Notes under the pieces: generated by a model
Told to the model about the DNA's origin: nothing
Databases searched by the model: none
What the model saw: only the letters and a program-made list of their open reading frames with translations
In this document: piece after piece, positions 1,975 through 23,871 of the stretch
Numbering within the stretch: the first letter of the stretch is position 1
Layout: every line of letters begins with the position of its first letter
Virus record (IMG/VR): IMGVR_UViG_3300042505_001210
Coordinates: 1 to 25,311 of that record
Strand: one strand, 5' to 3'
Length of the DNA: 25,311 nt
Source of the DNA: a virus
Translations under genes and position numbers: made by a program

Positions 1975-4098
1975 TTACAACATGTTTGTTTTTTTTAGTT
2001 CTGTATTAAGTTGATCAAGTTTTTCACCAATCATTGATTTTTTCTTTTTTTTCCTACCAAATATCTTTTTTACTATGCCTTTCCTTTTCAGATATAATTT
2101 TTTCTGCATTTCATTATCATCATTTACAAAATCTTTGGATGCCAGTTGACTATAAGTAAGAACTCCTGCAGGAGACTTAAACGTTTTTGGATCAGTAAGT
2201 TTAATATTTTTTTTAATTGATTTTTGAAGTCTATTAAAAAGTTTTTTGTTTTCTGGAAAATGCGTATCAATGTATAAATCTGATGTTTTAACCAGCAACT
2301 CATTTTGAATTTCTTTTTCTTTAAACTGTCTTTCACTTGGAGATAAAGTCGCCAACTTCATAGAAGTTTCAAACTCAAGTAAAAGATATTTTTTAATTGG
2401 AGATGGAAGATTTTGTATCTCTTGAATTAATAAATCATATTCACTTACTTCATTTACTTCATTTACTGTTTGATTTGATTGATTTTGTCTCTTAAATTTT
2501 TCAAATAAACTTTCTTCTTTAACTGGTTGATTTCTATAATTTGGAGATAATTTTTGTGCTTGACTTGCAGGAATAACAGTTTCAAAGTGAACTATAGGTG
2601 CTTCTTTTCCTGGAGTTCCTGGTATAAATCCAAAACCAGATTGGTCAAAAAATGTTTGTATATTTGCACTAACCTCTTGCTTTGCTTTTTCTCCACCTAA
2701 AGCATCAGCAACCGCACCAAAAAAATTTACTGTTTGTTTTACAATTTGTTTATTTGCAATATCTTCTGATGGTCCAAAACCATAAGTATCAGGAATACGA
2801 ATGTTTCCTTTGTTATCAATATATGGTGTTCCTGTAATATTGTTATGTGTTCCTTTTGCTCCGAAATTTCCACCAATATTGGGATTAATAGAAGTTTTTC
2901 TTTGTAAATGTTGTCCTAAAGATCCATCTATTTTAGGATCATATCCCTGTAAAAGATACTCTTGAGTTGATGATGAGAGTTTATTTGATAAAGGATTGTT
3001 TTGAGTTCCCAAAGAACCAGGAGGAAGAGTATATCTTCCACCAGAATCTTTTGGTCCCCATTGTGTAGATCCTAAAATATTTTTAACATTACTCAATAAA
3101 TTAATCCCATCTTCTATACCATCAGTAATTCTTGTTATTGGTTTAGTAAAATTAGATAAAGACTTTTCACCTTCCCTTATTTTATTTCCAATTTGAGTAA
3201 TTGCTTGTTCTGCACCTTTTCCAAAATCAGAAATTGCTTTGCCTACATTTTTTATAAAATCAATACCCGCATTAAAAACAGTAGGGTAATATCGAGGATC
3301 ACCCAAATTATATCTACCTATAATAACTTGTTGAGGAGGAATTGCAGGAACTCCAGGAATCGCAGGAACCTCTGGAGATCCTGGATCGGTCATTATACGA
3401 TTAGGTAAAACATTTCCATTTGCATCTGCAGCAAGCCAAAGTGTGTATGCATACAAAGCATAATTTGCTTTTGGAGTCGTTTCATTAGTTAGTCCCGATG
3501 GATAATATTGTGATGCTCCTCTACAAGATCCAAGAAGACAATCTAATTGTCCCCAAAGATAAATTGTTTTTACTATTTTACCAGGATAGGGCCAGTTATA
3601 ATAAGCTTGCTGATAGGCACGACCCAAATCAGTATCAGCATTTGCAAAAGTACCAACTGCAGCGATTCTTGTAAATCCACCAGAACCTAGGTATCCAACT
3701 TGATAGGTAGATAACCAACCATCCCCTATTAAATATCCAAGAGGAGTTACACCTTCAGGATACTCACCTTCAATTTGACGTGTCGCCGCTACTTGCTCTC
3801 CATTATAAGTTGTATATAAATTTGCAGGTATATTTACTGGAGCATTTGGATCACTACCATCTCCCTGATCTCCCCAAACAAAATCATTCTGATTAGAAAG
3901 TCCACCTGTAACATTTTCATAAGTTGGTGGAACTGCTGGAATTGCAGGAATTTCTGGAACCGCAGGAACTCCAGAGTCCATTCCATAATCTAGATATAAC
4001 CCTGTAGTGGTCATCTTTTCATTCAAAAAATTAATCTTTTGATTAATCTCTTCTGACTTTAGATGATTTAATATTTTTTTATATCTATTCTTTCTCAC
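1975..4098 (-). CDS. Large putative virion structural protein
   Basis: A 707-codon frame with no enzyme motif that I recognise. Two short proline-rich stretches (VPAVPEIPAIPAVPP at 44-58 and VPAIPGVPAIPP at 244-255) bracket a segment rich in Gly, Tyr and Trp. The middle (about 285-350) looks helical and the C-terminus is strongly lysine-rich. This layout fits conserved structural proteins of T4-like cyanophages, but that is a judgement from composition and context. The frame opens with GTG 4098 and no ribosome binding site. ATG 4014 (residue 29, MTTTGLYLDYG) is a good alternative start, since the preceding 28 residues are basic and lack a convincing signal. AATAAATA at 4120-4127 could be its late promoter. 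It ends 27 bases before the psbA promoter without a visible terminator. Confidence 0.65.
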   Translation of the reverse strand: MRKNRYKKILNHLKSEEINQKINFLNEKMTTTGLYLDYGMDSGVPAVPEIPAIPAVPPTYENVTGGLSNQNDFVWGDQGDGSDPNAPVNIPANLYTTYNGEQVAATRQIEGEYPEGVTPLGYLIGDGWLSTYQVGYLGSGGFTRIAAVGTFANADTDLGRAYQQAYYNWPYPGKIVKTIYLWGQLDCLLGSCRGASQYYPSGLTNETTPKANYALYAYTLWLAADANGNVLPNRIMTDPGSPEVPAIPGVPAIPPQQVIIGRYNLGDPRYYPTVFNAGIDFIKNVGKAISDFGKGAEQAITQIGNKIREGEKSLSNFTKPITRITDGIEDGINLLSNVKNILGSTQWGPKDSGGRYTLPPGSLGTQNNPLSNKLSSSTQEYLLQGYDPKIDGSLGQHLQRKTSINPNIGGNFGAKGTHNNITGTPYIDNKGNIRIPDTYGFGPSEDIANKQIVKQTVNFFGAVADALGGEKAKQEVSANIQTFFDQSGFGFIPGTPGKEAPIVHFETVIPASQAQKLSPNYRNQPVKEESLFEKFKRQNQSNQTVNEVNEVSEYDLLIQEIQNLPSPIKKYLLLEFETSMKLATLSPSERQFKEKEIQNELLVKTSDLYIDTHFPENKKLFNRLQKSIKKNIKLTDPKTFKSPAGVLTYSQLASKDFVNDDNEMQKKLYLKRKGIVKKIFGRKKKKKSMIGEKLDQLNTELKKTNML

Positions 4099-4915: not shown

Positions 4916-4944
4916 ATTATATAGGAAATCTTAAGACTTGTCAA
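4916..4944 (-). promoter_or_regulatory. Consensus sigma-70 promoter of the hli operon
   Basis: TTGACA (4939-4944) and TATAAT (4916-4921), both fully consensus on the minus strand, are separated by exactly 17 bases. It drives the four-gene hli operon down to the terminator at 4293-4324. It lies right after the end of the glycan island, which has no terminator of its own visible here. Confidence 0.9.
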
Positions 4945-17725: not shown

Positions 17726-18716
17726 AAATGCACATATCCTCAATCAATTGGTCAAATGTAATTTTAGGTTCCCAACCTAGTTTCTCCTTTGCCTTTGAGG
17801 CATCACCTAATAAGGTCTCTACTTCAGCAGGTCTAAAATATTTAGGATTGACCTTAATAACTTCTTTTCCGGTAAAAACATCATATCCAATCTCATCCAA
17901 ACCATCACCCCTCCAGGTAATTTGCATTCCAAAGTAAAGTGCCGCTTTTTCAACAAACTCACGCACAGAGTATTGTTCTCCAGTAGCAATCACATAATCT
18001 TCTGGAGTTTCCTGCTGCAACATCAACCACATTGCTTCAACGTAATCTTTAGCGTGACCCCAGTCACGTTTTGCATTTAGATTACCCAACTCAAGAATAC
18101 TTTGCTGTCCTGTAGAAATTCTTGAAAGAGCACGAGTAATCTTTCTGGTAACAAAAGTTTCGCCCCTGCGCGGAGATTCGTGATTAAAAAGAATACCCGT
18201 ACAAGCGTACATCCCATACGATTCCCGATAGTTTTTGGTAATCCAGTAGGCATAAAGTTTTGCTACACCATATGGAGAACGAGGATAGAATGGAGTGGTT
18301 TCTTTTTGAGGAATTTCCTGAACAAGACCATATAATTCACTTGTTGATGCCTGATAGATTCTTACTTTATCTTCCATACCCAGAAGACGCACTGCTTCCA
18401 GAACACGCAGAGTTCCCACAGCATCCACATCAGCAGTGTATTCAGGCATCTCAAAGGATACTTTGACGTGACTCTGAGCACCCAGATTATAAATCTCATC
18501 TGGTTGGACCTGTTGTATTACTCTTACAAGATTTGTGGAATCAGTAAGATCACCATAATGCAACTTAATCCTGTTGTAAATATGGTCAATTCTTTGAGTA
18601 TTAATTTGAGATGCACGACGAATAATACCGTGAACTTCATATCCCCTTTCTAAAAGAAATTCTGCAAGGTAAGAACCGTCTTGACCTGCAATTCCTGAAA
18701 TTAACGCTTTTTTCAT
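17715..18716 (-). CDS. gmd: GDP-mannose 4,6-dehydratase
   Basis: 333 residues from ATG 18716, which overlaps the upstream stop as ATGA; a TTG nine bases earlier is not needed. Gmd removes water from GDP-D-mannose to give GDP-4-keto-6-deoxy-D-mannose, the first committed step to GDP-L-fucose. Visible features: [20 protein letters not shown] (NADP site), [29 protein letters not shown] (catalytic Thr/Glu), [12 protein letters not shown] (Tyr-Lys), [16 protein letters not shown] (GDP and NADP contact) and [17 protein letters not shown]. The protein is complete and all catalytic elements are in place. GDP-mannose is not made by any gene in the window, so it must come from the host. Confidence 0.97.
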
Positions 18717-19537
18717 ACTTCGCAATTTGTAAAATCTATTTGACCATTTCGAGTTGCCCAGATTGGATACTCTTTACCATAAGTATTCCAAACATTTGCT
18801 TGTGCGTGACCAACCGGAATACCGGTCATTCCAGCAGCATTCCAAATTGTTTCATAGGTGTCATCCTCGTGAAAAGTAAAGTCGTGAGATTCTGCCTGCT
18901 GTTTCAAAAGCAAAGACAAGATAGATTGGTCGTGCCTATTTTCTATAAAAATGGAATCATTAGATAGACTTGAACGACTATCATCCAAATACTTTCCACC
19001 ATCCTCAACACAAATATCCATCCATTTCCTAACCAACTCTCTCATCATAAGAGTATTCTTGAGAAAGAAGATACCAGAAATAATTTGCCGTGTCATCAGA
19101 TATTCATCATTATCTCCAAGTATATGACGATATGTATCCATCTTTGTCCACTGAATTTCTGGCAAGTCTAGTGTAAAGAATACACCTTCAGTCTCTAGAC
19201 ATTCCTGATAATACTGCTGAAGTTTCTCCAATCCATTTTTATTCAACTCACAACCAGAATCAACATAAAGAAGCACTTCATTTTCAGGAATAGTATCAAG
19301 TGCTTTTAAAACAAAATAAGGTTTACATGCATAATACCCATAATATCGTCCAGGCATTCCTAAACGAGGTGCCATCATTGGTTTAGCGTATTCTTCCCAG
19401 AATGAATTGTTTTCTAAATCAGATTCTCCAAATTCCAGAATAGAATCAAATACTTCAAAATTTTCTGCTTGTTTTCTAATTCTACTTTTACCTATAGAGA
19501 AATTCTCATCTCCAAAGTAAGTTAAATGCAACTTCAT
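18713..19537 (-). CDS. Predicted glycosyltransferase, first gene of the sugar operon
   Basis: 274 residues from ATG 19537; a GTG six bases earlier is possible. It starts [19 protein letters not shown], followed by [20 protein letters not shown] and [16 protein letters not shown] near 90-105. YVDSGCE is a D-x-G/D-type metal site at the end of a Rossmann-like strand, as in GT-A capsular transferases of marine viruses and bacteria. The [19 protein letters not shown] block, with its HDQS, is the usual late motif of the same enzymes. I do not recognise a numbered family. No Shine-Dalgarno is visible. It is first in the run of overlapping genes that includes gmd and fcl and lies just after the leader RNA and terminator. 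Confidence 0.7.
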
Positions 19538-19560
19538 ACACACTAAAGTATTATTTTGTC

Positions 19561-19589
19561 ATTATAGCAAAAAAGGAGAGTTTATGCAA
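19561..19589 (-). promoter_or_regulatory. Possible sigma-70 promoter inside the terminator
   Basis: TTGCAT (19584-19589), 17 bases, then TATAAT (19561-19566) on the minus strand. The -10 is consensus, the -35 matches four of six. If used, it would start near 19553, bypass the terminator and leave only about 15 bases before ATG 19537. It overlaps the terminator hairpin, so the same bases may serve both. Confidence 0.45.
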
Positions 19590-19595
19590 CTCTCC
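19569..19595 (-). terminator. Intrinsic terminator before the sugar operon
   Basis: On the minus strand GGAGAGTT (19588-19595) and AACTCTCC (19575-19582) form an 8-bp stem with loop GCATA, followed by TTTTTT (19569-19574). It lies between the leader RNA and the first sugar gene, the place of an attenuator. An upstream GCAACTC (19611-19617) is complementary to GAGTTGC (19586-19592) and could form a competing antiterminator. Confidence 0.85.
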
Positions 19596-19602
19596 CTTTA
19601 GT

Positions 19603-19740
19603 ATATAACGGAGTTGCGCTTCTCCAGACTGCTCGCCACTTGCCCTTTGACTGGAGGCAAGAAACCAGGCGGGGTTTCCCCATCCACACCAGTCGGCATA
19701 TTTAATGTCCAATCCGACGAGGACAAAATGGGTCATTGAC
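19603..19740 (-). ncRNA. Candidate structured leader RNA (riboswitch-like, perhaps wcaG motif)
   Basis: This stretch is clearly more GC-rich than its surroundings and full of complementary pieces: GGGGAAACCCC hairpin (19671-19681), CTTGCC/GGCAAG hairpin (19656-19661 with 19639-19644) whose loop holds CCAGTC, and an upstream GACTGG (19689-19694) that could pair with that loop as a pseudoknot. GGAG/CTCC near 19611-19626 could sequester the antiterminator strand. The wcaG RNA motif is a known conserved structure in cyanophages, found upstream of exopolysaccharide genes including wcaG (fcl), which is in this operon. I could not compare it with the consensus. An open frame runs through it (stop at 19551), but codon use is unlike the phage genes. 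Confidence 0.6.
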
Positions 19741-19747
19741 TCCACCA

Positions 19748-19767
19748 CCTAGTTTATCCTAACTAGG
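19748..19767 (-). other. Hairpin over the stop of the small membrane protein gene
   Basis: CCTAGTT and AACTAGG form a perfect 7-bp stem with a 6-nt loop that includes the TAG stop at 19759-19761. There is no T-run after it on the minus strand, so it is not a classic terminator. It might protect the mRNA 3' end or mark the 5' boundary of the leader RNA. Confidence 0.4.
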
Positions 19768-20004
19768 AAAGGTTAGTTGAATAAGTTTTGGAATCTCAAT
19801 TGCAGCATAGAAACCACAAAGAATGAGAATGTCCCAAAACTTATACTTGATTGCAAAGGGAATGACAAAAGCATTACCAACACATTTTACAAGTAGTCCA
19901 ACTTTGGGATCTCCCCATAAAAGGACAAAGTATCCTGATAGAAGGAGAATGTTTCCAATGTATCTTAATACATCAGTGTTTTTCATAAGGGGGGATTTCA
20001 TCAC
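19759..20004 (-). CDS. Small membrane protein (81 aa)
   Basis: An 81-residue protein with three hydrophobic stretches: IGNILLLSGYFVLLWG (about 16-31), VGLLVKCVGNAFVIPFAI (35-52) and FWDILILCGFYAAIEI (56-71). The loops carry single charges, giving a compact three-helix membrane protein. It is reminiscent of conserved small cyanophage membrane proteins, but I know no function. Three possible start codons are close together (20004, 20001 and 19986) and the Shine-Dalgarno is poor, so the start is uncertain. It is third in the operon from the 20522-20550 promoter. Its stop lies in a hairpin. Confidence 0.7.
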   Translation of the reverse strand: MMKSPLMKNTDVLRYIGNILLLSGYFVLLWGDPKVGLLVKCVGNAFVIPFAIKYKFWDILILCGFYAAIEIPKLIQLTFPS

Positions 20005-20016
20005 CGACCAGTACTT

Positions 20017-20286
20017 TTAGAGACTCTCCGTGTCTTCGTCATCTCCTTTCACATAAGCAGGAACCGTATCAGGATCTAACCAACAGGTGTAATTATGGTC
20101 CTCCATTGCAGTCATAAGTTGCATTTCATTATCCAAAAGATACATATCTCGGTATCTTCCAGTATAAGAATCTACTTTCTGAATACGATAGTCAGGTTTG
20201 CCATTGATTTCTAGAATGCCGCATTGAATATAGCGATATGGAAACCGCTCAAGAAGAACGGTTGGTTTCCTAACAACTTTCATCAT
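20017..20286 (-). CDS. Conserved hypothetical protein (89 aa)
   Basis: An 89-residue soluble protein, MKVVRKPTVLLERFPYRYI at the N-terminus, beta-strand-rich, ending in an acidic tail GDDEDTESL. ATG 20286 overlaps the stop of the upstream gene by 4 bases (ATGA); a second ATG follows directly. No catalytic motif or known family is visible. The operon position between two other small cyanophage genes, and the clean overlap, support it as a real gene. Confidence 0.7.
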   Translation of the reverse strand: MMKVVRKPTVLLERFPYRYIQCGILEINGKPDYRIQKVDSYTGRYRDMYLLDNEMQLMTAMEDHNYTCWLDPDTVPAYVKGDDEDTESL

Positions 20287-20498
20287 GCAACCTCTACAGT
20301 TTCAAGATCTTGAGCGACATACTCCATAAGCATTTCATAGTCGTCAAGAGGGTCACCCGAAAATACAACCCCTACATTTTCATAGTAGCGGCGCACCTTT
20401 TTATAAAGTTTCGGATTCTTTACATCAAGGTAGATTTCCCCGTTAGCAGCAAGACGAAGAGTGCTAACATCTTTCTTGAATTTTGAGATCAGAGACAT
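20283..20498 (-). CDS. Conserved hypothetical protein (71 aa)
   Basis: First gene after the promoter at 20522-20550. The 71 residues begin MSLISKFKKDVSTLRLAANG and continue through KNPKLYKKVRRYYENVGVVF to an acidic C-terminus. It is a soluble alpha/beta protein of the kind repeated in many cyanomyovirus early regions. I cannot give a function. The leader is only about 17 bases and has no strong Shine-Dalgarno (GAGC at some distance from the ATG). Confidence 0.7.
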   Translation of the reverse strand: MSLISKFKKDVSTLRLAANGEIYLDVKNPKLYKKVRRYYENVGVVFSGDPLDDYEMLMEYVAQDLETVEVA

Positions 20499-20521: not shown

Positions 20522-20550
20522 ATTATAAGGTGTTTGAGACTTTATGTCAA
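20522..20550 (-). promoter_or_regulatory. Consensus sigma-70 promoter
   Basis: TTGACA (20545-20550) and TATAAT (20522-20527) on the minus strand, exactly 17 bases apart. It would drive the three small genes at 19759-20498 and then run into the leader RNA and terminator before the sugar operon, so it is the best visible promoter for the candidate riboswitch. Confidence 0.9.
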
Positions 20551-20573: not shown

Positions 20574-20575
20574 AG

Positions 20576-20651
20576 TCCGGATACTTGGATTTGAACCAAG
20601 ATTTTTCCACTTCCCAAAAGTGGTGCCATAACCAAGTTAGGCGATATCCGG
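20576..20651 (-). tRNA. tRNA-Pro (anticodon TGG)
   Basis: The minus strand folds as a complete 76-nt cloverleaf: acceptor CCGGATA/TATCCGG, D-arm GCC/GGC with loop containing TTGGTTA, anticodon stem CCACT/AGTGG with loop TTTGGGA (anticodon TGG), and T-arm CTTGG/CCAAG with loop TTCAAAT. The discriminator base is A and no CCA is encoded. It would read CCA and CCN proline codons. Its first 15 bases are also the end of the HNH endonuclease gene, whose stop TAA is at 20637-20639. Confidence 0.92.
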
Positions 20652-21140
20652 GAGTATTAGTTGATTAGCATGAACTGCCGAATGGCAACAAGCACATAGT
20701 AACACACAACCCTGTATTTCGTCAAGTATTCTATTTTGATTCCAACAACGAATGTTGGCAAATTTTGGATCTTTTTTTGATGGGTTTAAATGATGAACGT
20801 GTAGTGCTGATGAATATTTATTATATCCGCAAGAAACACATTTTCCACCCATAGATTCAATAATAAAATCTCTTTTTTTCTTTCCCAATTCTAGGGTATA
20901 AGAATTATGACACTTTCCACAAACTCGTTTTTTGTGACCGTAAAACTTTTCTGGATTAGTTTCACCACACATTCCACATTTGTGTGAAGTTTTTGAATTG
21001 TTTATAGAAGTATATTTTGATTTTAAATCATACTTTTTACACCAATGTCTAATGGAAGAGAGAGATTTATTTTCTTGTTTTGAAATGTCATTCATTGACA
21101 TTCCATCTTCAAGCATTTTTTCCAATGATTTCTTATCCAT
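20637..21140 (-). CDS. Free-standing HNH homing endonuclease overlapping tRNA-Pro
   Basis: 167 residues. The N-terminus has a helix-turn-helix-like part (MSMNDISKQENKSLSSIRHW, 14-33), then a zinc ribbon (Cys55, Cys58, Cys74, Cys77), then a Cys-rich HNH domain: CVSCG (101-105), HVHHLNP (114-120), and CACCHSAVH (149-157). This is the build of zinc-containing HNH proteins in phage genomes. The last four residues (PDIA) and the stop are encoded by the tRNA-Pro 5' end, so the gene appears inserted precisely against the tRNA. Expression signals are unusual: a consensus early promoter, a long hairpin reaching to one base before the ATG, and a late promoter in the hairpin loop. Its target is probably the tRNA-Pro locus of phages lacking it (inference). 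Confidence 0.85.
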   Translation of the reverse strand: MDKKSLEKMLEDGMSMNDISKQENKSLSSIRHWCKKYDLKSKYTSINNSKTSHKCGMCGETNPEKFYGHKKRVCGKCHNSYTLELGKKKRDFIIESMGGKCVSCGYNKYSSALHVHHLNPSKKDPKFANIRCWNQNRILDEIQGCVLLCACCHSAVHANQLILPDIA

Positions 21141-21184: not shown

Positions 21185-21298
21185 TTTAGTTCGGTGTATA
21201 AGCATTATACCCATAACGGGCGGAACTGTCAAGCACATCCCAATGATAAAGAGTCCTATCGGACTATTCAATATAGTTTCTACAATATGAAAAATCAT
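21182..21298 (-). CDS. Small membrane protein (38 aa)
   Basis: ATG 21298 overlaps the upstream stop as ATGA, with GGAGGGG just before it, one of the best ribosome binding sites in this region. The 38-residue product is one hydrophobic helix pair (NSPIGLFIIGMCLTVPPVMG) with a basic C-terminus (LIHRTK). Its coding sequence contains the consensus promoter at 21204-21232, and its stop is in the hairpin before the HNH gene. No family is recognised. Confidence 0.65.
   Translation of the reverse strand: MIFHIVETILNSPIGLFIIGMCLTVPPVMGIMLIHRTK
21204..21232 (-). promoter_or_regulatory. Consensus sigma-70 promoter upstream of the HNH gene
   Basis: TTGACA (21227-21232) and TATAAT (21204-21209) on the minus strand, 17 bases apart, inside the 38-residue gene. 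Transcripts from it start near 21197 and include the whole hairpin, the HNH gene and tRNA-Pro. It is therefore also a promoter for the tRNA. Confidence 0.88.
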
Positions 21299-23779: not shown

Positions 23780-23784
23780 AGAAG

Positions 23785-23871
23785 CGGAGAGAAGGCGAGT
23801 CGAACGCCTAAGGGTTTTAACACCTCAACGCTTTTCAAGAGCGGTTCCGTCACCAATCGGATTGTCTCTCC
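23785..23871 (-). tRNA. tRNA-Ser (anticodon TGA)
   Basis: An 87-nt class II tRNA. Acceptor GGAGAGA/TCTCTCC, D-arm TCCG/CGGA with loop ATTGGTGA, anticodon loop CTTGAAA (anticodon TGA) on a stem CGCT/AGCG, a long variable arm around GAGGTGTTAAAACCC, and T-arm AGGCG/CGCCT with TTCGACT. The discriminator base is G, as expected for Ser, and no CCA is encoded. It reads TCA codons, common in AT-rich phage genes. Its 5' end directly follows the stop codon of the PD-(D/E)XK gene. Confidence 0.92.

Follow-up and report, generated by a model that had tools for sequence, protein, structure and literature searches.

A wcaG RNA in a cyanophage lies in a tandem pseudoknot array that may close the unit upstream of a GDP-fucose operon

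Introduction

wcaG RNA (RF01761) was listed in 2010 as a candidate riboswitch that lies near exopolysaccharide or high-light genes (PMC2864571). No ligand for it is named in the literature that we found, where the candidate listing dates from 2010. EAR and HK022 put are folded RNA elements that stand before terminators, EAR in exopolysaccharide operons, and known put sites lie close to a promoter, not at the end of a transcription unit. EAR appears, as epsC RNA, in the 2010 work, as does STAXI (RF01728), in which two or three copies of a pseudoknot stand in tandem (PMC2864571). T4-like phages carry composite promoter-terminators called PeSL (Arbiol 2010; Comeau 2014), which passages of PMC4503421 describe as an early promoter and a stem-loop terminator fused in a short cassette at gene boundaries.

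Here we analyzed a 25,311-nt stretch of cyanophage DNA (IMG/VR record IMGVR_UViG_3300042505_001210; hereafter the window), in which a structured RNA precedes GDP-fucose genes. Like the wcaG motif as described (RF01761; PMC2864571), this RNA matches the covariance model over its full length, falls in the cyanophage range and stands before exopolysaccharide genes. It differs in that we read it as the probable 3′ end of the unit upstream, with a terminator and promoter intervening, and in that it belongs to an array reaching beyond the 98-nt model. The array shares tandem pseudoknot repeats with STAXI but differs in hosts and neighbours, and no STAXI covariance match (RF01728) was found in the window or the seven relatives scanned. 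EAR and put gave no Rfam sequence match to the wcaG element.

Results

The structured RNA before the fucose genes of this cyanophage is a known element, wcaG RNA. The RF01761 covariance model matched window positions 19726-19625 on the minus strand with 72.9 bits against a gathering cut-off of 42 (E 4.5e-12), covering model positions 1-98, and the curated threshold for family membership is thus exceeded across the full 98-nt model. The initial annotation, made from the sequence letters, had guessed this family correctly, and its description of a pairing-rich leader agrees with the fold of 19560-19735 (MFE -60.5 kcal/mol, z -3.0), which is better than that of shuffles. Rfam matches to STnc390 and mir-957 were dismissed, both being far under their cut-offs. 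Coding readings were also rejected. The window has a frame open from ATGACC through wcaG, but only 34 of 137 relatives keep it open, and the tail of module M2 (Table 1) varies in length from 20 to 29 nt, so that the frame is not kept; a leader peptide starting at GGAG-N-ATG was set aside because, on inspection, the ATG is not conserved among relatives.

Table 1. Features around the wcaG RNA in the window
Feature	Position	Strand	Description
Upstream-unit promoter	20522..20550	-	TTGACA-N17-TATAAT, 12/12 match; predicted from sequence
Small ORF, first gene of upstream unit	20284..20498	-	about 70 aa, starts MSLISKFKKD
89-aa ORF	20017..20286	-	PHROG 481, E 1.3e-40; function unassigned
Module M0	19991..20035	-	type A hairpin AGAC/GTCT, loop ACGGAGA, then UAAAA..UGG, CGG..CCCC tail
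Small membrane-protein-like ORF	19759..19985	-	PHROG 2318
Module M1	19730..19774	-	CCTAGTT/AACTAGG helix, UGG, then GGAGUC..GACC hairpin
Module M2	19668..19724	-	H-type pseudoknot GTCC/GGAC + GTCGG/CCGAC, UGG, GGGG/CCCC tail hairpin; Rfam match
Module M3	19634..19668	-	H-type pseudoknot, then UGGCG; alignment A1
Small GGAG/CTCC hairpin in extra spacer	19610..19625	-	contains GCAACTC strand; window, L083 and L093 only
Intrinsic terminator	19569..19599	-	hairpin + T6 fold; stem covariation in relatives
Promoter embedded in terminator	19561..19589	-	TTGCAT-N17-TATAAT; predicted from sequence
First glycan-operon gene	18713..19537	-	ATG 19537; glycosyltransferase-like by S-SRM01 annotation

Relatives came from four pattern scans of IMG/VR and eight annotated isolates, which gave at least 430 sequences, the window included. 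Removing near-duplicates and requiring a last module with the UGGCG tail left 309 representative loci, a sample and not a census. Because scan pattern 3 leaves the S1 helix of that module wholly free and pattern 4 fixes at most one base adjoining it, S1 variation is close to unbiased; patterns 1 and 2 constrain part of the helix. A whole-genome search found exactly one wcaG in each of the eight cyanophage isolates, the nearest being Synechococcus phage S-SRM01 (84% identity over 87% of a 5-kb stretch). When 84,980 bacterial and archaeal genomes were scanned with two patterns, we obtained 0 and 1 matches. A host origin was rejected, since the sole match lies in a Rhodobacteraceae MAG, on a contig whose glycan genes resemble those of cyanophages. 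In that contig (L242, NZVE01000057.1) wcaG adjoins phage-type glycan genes, and the contig is probably a misplaced cyanophage one. wcaG was thus present in cyanophages and marine phage sequence, the lone MAG match being of probable phage origin.

The Rfam model covers only two modules, the final ones in a tandem array that usually has three or four pseudoknots or hairpins with UGG after each; M2 is the 5′ half of the model and M3 its 3′ half. With a fixed length of 30 nt, the last module forms an H-type pseudoknot in the order S1 (4 bp), UUU, S2 (6 bp), one base, S1′, a six-base A-rich loop and S2′, followed by UGGCG. M3 of the window pairs CTGG 19668-19665 with CCAG 19654-19651, and CTTGCC 19661-19656 with GGCAAG 19644-19639. 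Across 51 distinct sequences (A1), 99.6% of cells were paired, with 114 two-sided changes, and the covariation score was 0.619 compared to 0.260 shuffled (0/500 reached 0.619) and at most 0.178 for slid structures. Variants of S1 among relatives include CTGG/CCAG, CCAG/CTGG, CCTG/CAGG, CAGG/CCTG, and CTAG/CTAG, and UGG is constant while the M3 loop varies. By a strict rule, the M2-type H-type pseudoknot was found in 198 of 291 sampled loci, compared to 38 of 1455 shuffled. Covariation among relatives holds for the M3 pseudoknot, but not for the partner first proposed: the initial annotation had paired GACTGG 19689-19694 with CCAGTC 19649-19654, whereas the covarying partner of CCAG is the CTGG directly 5′ of the CTTGCC stem. 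GACTGG 19694-19689 consists of the 3′ strand of the preceding module's helix and the UGG common to all modules.

Most sampled loci have one or two additional modules upstream of the Rfam model. The commonest, type A, consists of a hairpin, for example AGUC/GACU, that has a YGG loop and is followed by an A-rich linker and UGG. Type A is absent from Rfam, and the unit of three to four modules is longer than the 98-nt model. Its covariation is found in S1 and in a lone pair that joins the loop Y to a purine lying four bases upstream of UGG. This pair (A2 columns 6 and 22; window 20030 and 20014) is C-G in 129 cases, U-A in 49, and other in 2. It covaries almost perfectly without adjoining pairs and is perhaps a tertiary contact. 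In isolates, no type A module was found farther than a few hundred bases from wcaG. M0, which overlaps the stop codon of the 89-aa ORF, scores 46.2 bits with model R1, which itself includes the M0 sequence. M1, which lies upstream of the Rfam model, likewise overlaps the stop codon of its preceding ORF; a short S1 (CCT/AGG) in this module is uncertain. The CGG..CCCC hairpin of M0 ends a few bases before the likely start of an 81-aa-type ORF (window 19985-20035), and in relatives the M0 tail is CGGGAGCAAACCCC, followed by ATG; the tail could hide the ribosome site.

The placement of this RNA before a GDP-fucose/glycan operon, also proposed from the letters, was borne out. The first downstream gene, which has no Pfam match, is followed by GMD (PF16363, E 6e-157) and an epimerase of GDP-fucose synthase type. 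In about three quarters of sampled loci, the first downstream gene is glycan-like by cluster (137 epimerases and 42 nucleotidyltransferases, then glycosyltransferases and the mannose-6-phosphate isomerase type), with Pfam applied to cluster representatives only. tRNA genes follow wcaG in 19 of 309 sampled loci, including S-CREM1, S-CAM1, and S-CAM3; in S-PM2 it also precedes a tRNA, and in syn9 it precedes hli. No single gene flanks wcaG on either side in all sampled loci, and the glycan association may stem from a preferred site of insertion in addition to function. One cluster in S-CREM1 (L121, 2874-3869) holds wcaG, tRNA-Met, tRNA-Leu, manA RNA, tRNA-Asn, abiF RNA, and tRNA-Gly, an order that places manA likewise among tRNAs there.

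wcaG lies upstream of glycan genes as expected of a 5′-UTR element, but a terminator and promoter intervene in most sampled loci. A minority, among them L073, L076, L095, L103, and L140, has neither between wcaG and the next start codon, and S-CAM1, S-CAM3, and S-PM2 have only a hairpin between wcaG and tRNA-Gly. Since full separation is missing in these loci, wcaG is in the leader there. In DSL-LC03 (L122, 2964-4130), the annotated GDP-mannose dehydratase start falls inside wcaG; translation likely begins at the ATG that follows the terminator-promoter, near 3130.

The terminator hairpin claimed by the initial annotation was confirmed. The hairpin GGAGAGTT-GCATA-AACTCTCC followed by T6 has an MFE of -15.7 kcal/mol (z -6.7), and terminators begin about 15-25 nt after wcaG. 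In relatives the stem covaries (A3; 99.1% paired, 46 two-sided cells, 0.595 versus 0.219 shuffled). Missed earlier was a predicted promoter embedded in this terminator, whose -35 box TTGCAT sits in the hairpin loop region and whose 17-nt spacer holds the 3′ arm and the T-run. Such a composite, of which the window has a single copy (19599-19561), occurs within 170 nt after wcaG in 233 of 309 sampled loci, with the -35 box (TTGCAT, TTGACA, or TTTACA) in the terminator loop region and the T-run in the spacer, usually of 17 nt, before TATAAT. Eleven further loci, mostly before tRNAs, have the hairpin and promoter without a T-run, 16 show just a promoter, 43 lack both by this rule (several of these with a plain terminator), and in 6 the sequence ends too early to classify. 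Thus, in 244 of 309 sampled loci (233 + 11) wcaG is separated from the next gene by a sigma70-type promoter with a hairpin; the spacer is 17 in 229 of the 244 and the -10 box exactly TATAAT in 208. An earlier set comprised 95 distinct loci, of which 81 had a composite near wcaG; 39 distinct composites lay elsewhere in about 1.7 Mb (both strands), and shuffles gave 2/1860. Two more TTGACA-N17-TATAAT matches in the window (4916-4944 and 21204-21232, minus strand) have no overlapping terminator.

The window composite and those of the 233 sampled loci resemble PeSL as passages of PMC4503421 describe it, in that each combines a putative terminator stem-loop with a putative sigma70-type early promoter in a short cassette at a gene boundary. 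The cassette here differs in being coupled to a pseudoknot array in most sampled loci, a comparison made by description and not by motif sequence.

To which transcript does wcaG belong? The composite promoter lies downstream of wcaG in the window, and the fucose operon therefore appears to have its own promoter. Upstream modules in relatives overlap the preceding gene's stop codon or have a tRNA immediately 5′, which leaves no room for a promoter of their own. A strong promoter is present within 1.2 kb upstream in 209 of the 240 sampled loci with enough flank, in 207 without a terminator before wcaG. Promoter-like sites, found in 81.6% of sampled loci in the 100-nt bin starting at the last module, are depleted in the 400 nt before wcaG (0.7-9.5%) and peak at -900 and -700. 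Terminator-like hairpins occur in 80.7% of sampled loci in the bin beginning at M3, and no other 100-nt bin between -1500 and +600 exceeds 1%. These positions are most simply explained if wcaG closes the upstream unit and the glycan operon is started by the promoter within the terminator. Upstream gene clusters in relatives include the same type as the MSLISKFKKD ORF, and the PHROG 2318 ORF, judged by its relatives, likely starts at ATG 19985 rather than at the listed GTG 20004. The transcript start and stop positions given here are predictions from sequence; our literature search found no transcription-start mapping for cyanophages.

Elsewhere in the window, a psbA-like gene (1-1886) is split by two group I introns (RF00028, 240-1 and 897-633, minus strand), with an ORF at 707-1402 and PhotoRC-II RNA upstream (1886-1790). 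An HNH endonuclease-like ORF (20637-21140) overlaps at its end a tRNA-Pro gene (20575-20651). At 23784-23871, Rfam tRNA-Sec at threshold competes with ARAGORN tRNA-Ser(UGA), the latter being more likely.

A switch acting on the fucose/glycan operon had been proposed, with GCAACTC 19617-19611 pairing with GAGTTGC 19592-19586 to break the terminator. The 7-base complement is present, but it is not conserved and the segment prefers the GGAG/CTCC hairpin; in the window fold, this hairpin forms and the terminator remains formed. The pair is restricted to the window and two close relatives (L083, L093), the spacer being clade-specific. Under alternative pairing, a locus's own terminator arms should match the upstream RNA better than swapped arms. 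In 244 sampled loci, arm/upstream complementarity was 4.86 compared to 4.80 swapped (range 4.67-4.95), revealing no excess. These 244 loci thus gave no conserved terminator/antiterminator pairing of the kind expected of a riboswitch expression platform; ligand effects by other routes may occur. With the operon's own promoter in 244 of 309 loci, none just upstream of wcaG, an unconserved antiterminator, and the wrong pseudoknot partner, the proposed switch mechanism is unsupported. The non-glycan neighbours (tRNA in S-CREM1, S-CAM1, S-CAM3, and S-PM2; hli in syn9) also weigh against a sugar switch. We conclude that wcaG here probably does not head the glycan message as a switch that senses sugars.

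Discussion

We consider it rather likely that wcaG is a phage-only 3′-end array of the upstream early unit, forming a structured 3′ UTR after which the glycan operon restarts. The unit would comprise the promoter at 20550, three small ORFs, the array, and the terminator (19599-19569), an anatomy shown by comparison of loci, with its transcription presumed. Since the -35 box of the following promoter sits in the terminator hairpin, the fucose operon would start afresh just after wcaG, so that its main message would exclude wcaG RNA. The array would most likely be the folded 3′ UTR of the upstream message or a processed RNA, and its folded end might confer resistance to 3′-exonucleases or allow retention as a stable RNA. 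It would also insulate the upstream and glycan units. We count in favor of the 3′-end reading that tRNA and hli genes, besides glycan genes, lie downstream. Counted against it are the glycan genes that come first in about three quarters of loci, which also fits cis-regulation, the position of M0 between two genes and near a start codon, and the leader placement in a minority of loci. Whether wcaG is the end, visible to Rfam, of a tandem pseudoknot array confined to phages that closes an early unit and acts as a 3′ end or a stand-alone RNA, with the glycan operon independently promoted from inside the terminator, seems to us evenly balanced.

The proposal of 2010 and of the initial annotation, a riboswitch whose ligand gates read-through into the glycan operon in addition to transcription from that operon's own promoter, draws on the listing as a candidate riboswitch (PMC2864571), the strong association with glycan genes, and the short distance of about 15-25 nt from wcaG to the terminator. 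We regard it as unlikely, however, because we saw no conserved alternative pairing of the terminator with upstream RNA, wcaG does not share the free variation of the terminator stem, most sampled loci give the operon a promoter of its own, and tRNA and hli genes are among the neighbours. The array stands immediately before a strong terminator in most sampled loci, and this position, its multi-hairpin anatomy, and the exopolysaccharide context would also suit a processive antitermination RNA which, by analogy with HK022 put or the EAR of eps operons, modifies polymerase to ignore the terminator. Yet put sites are known near promoters, not at the end of a unit, the downstream unit has a promoter of its own, and tRNA contexts fit poorly; such a role is very doubtful.

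The several similar modules in tandem, the single array per genome, and neighbours so varied that none is constant on either side could instead point to a stand-alone or processed RNA acting in trans, as a sponge whose repeated UGG-hairpin modules are recognised by a host protein or RNA. No promoter directly precedes the array, however, and no partner is known, making this role improbable.

If the 3′-end array reading is true, hunts for glycan-metabolite ligands with 5′-leader constructs would look to the wrong side of the gene map. The three to four covarying modules, including type A outside Rfam, provide a longer unit for a better covariance model. For T4-like cyanophages, the locus would be a case of terminator-promoter cassettes placed at a gene-exchange boundary.
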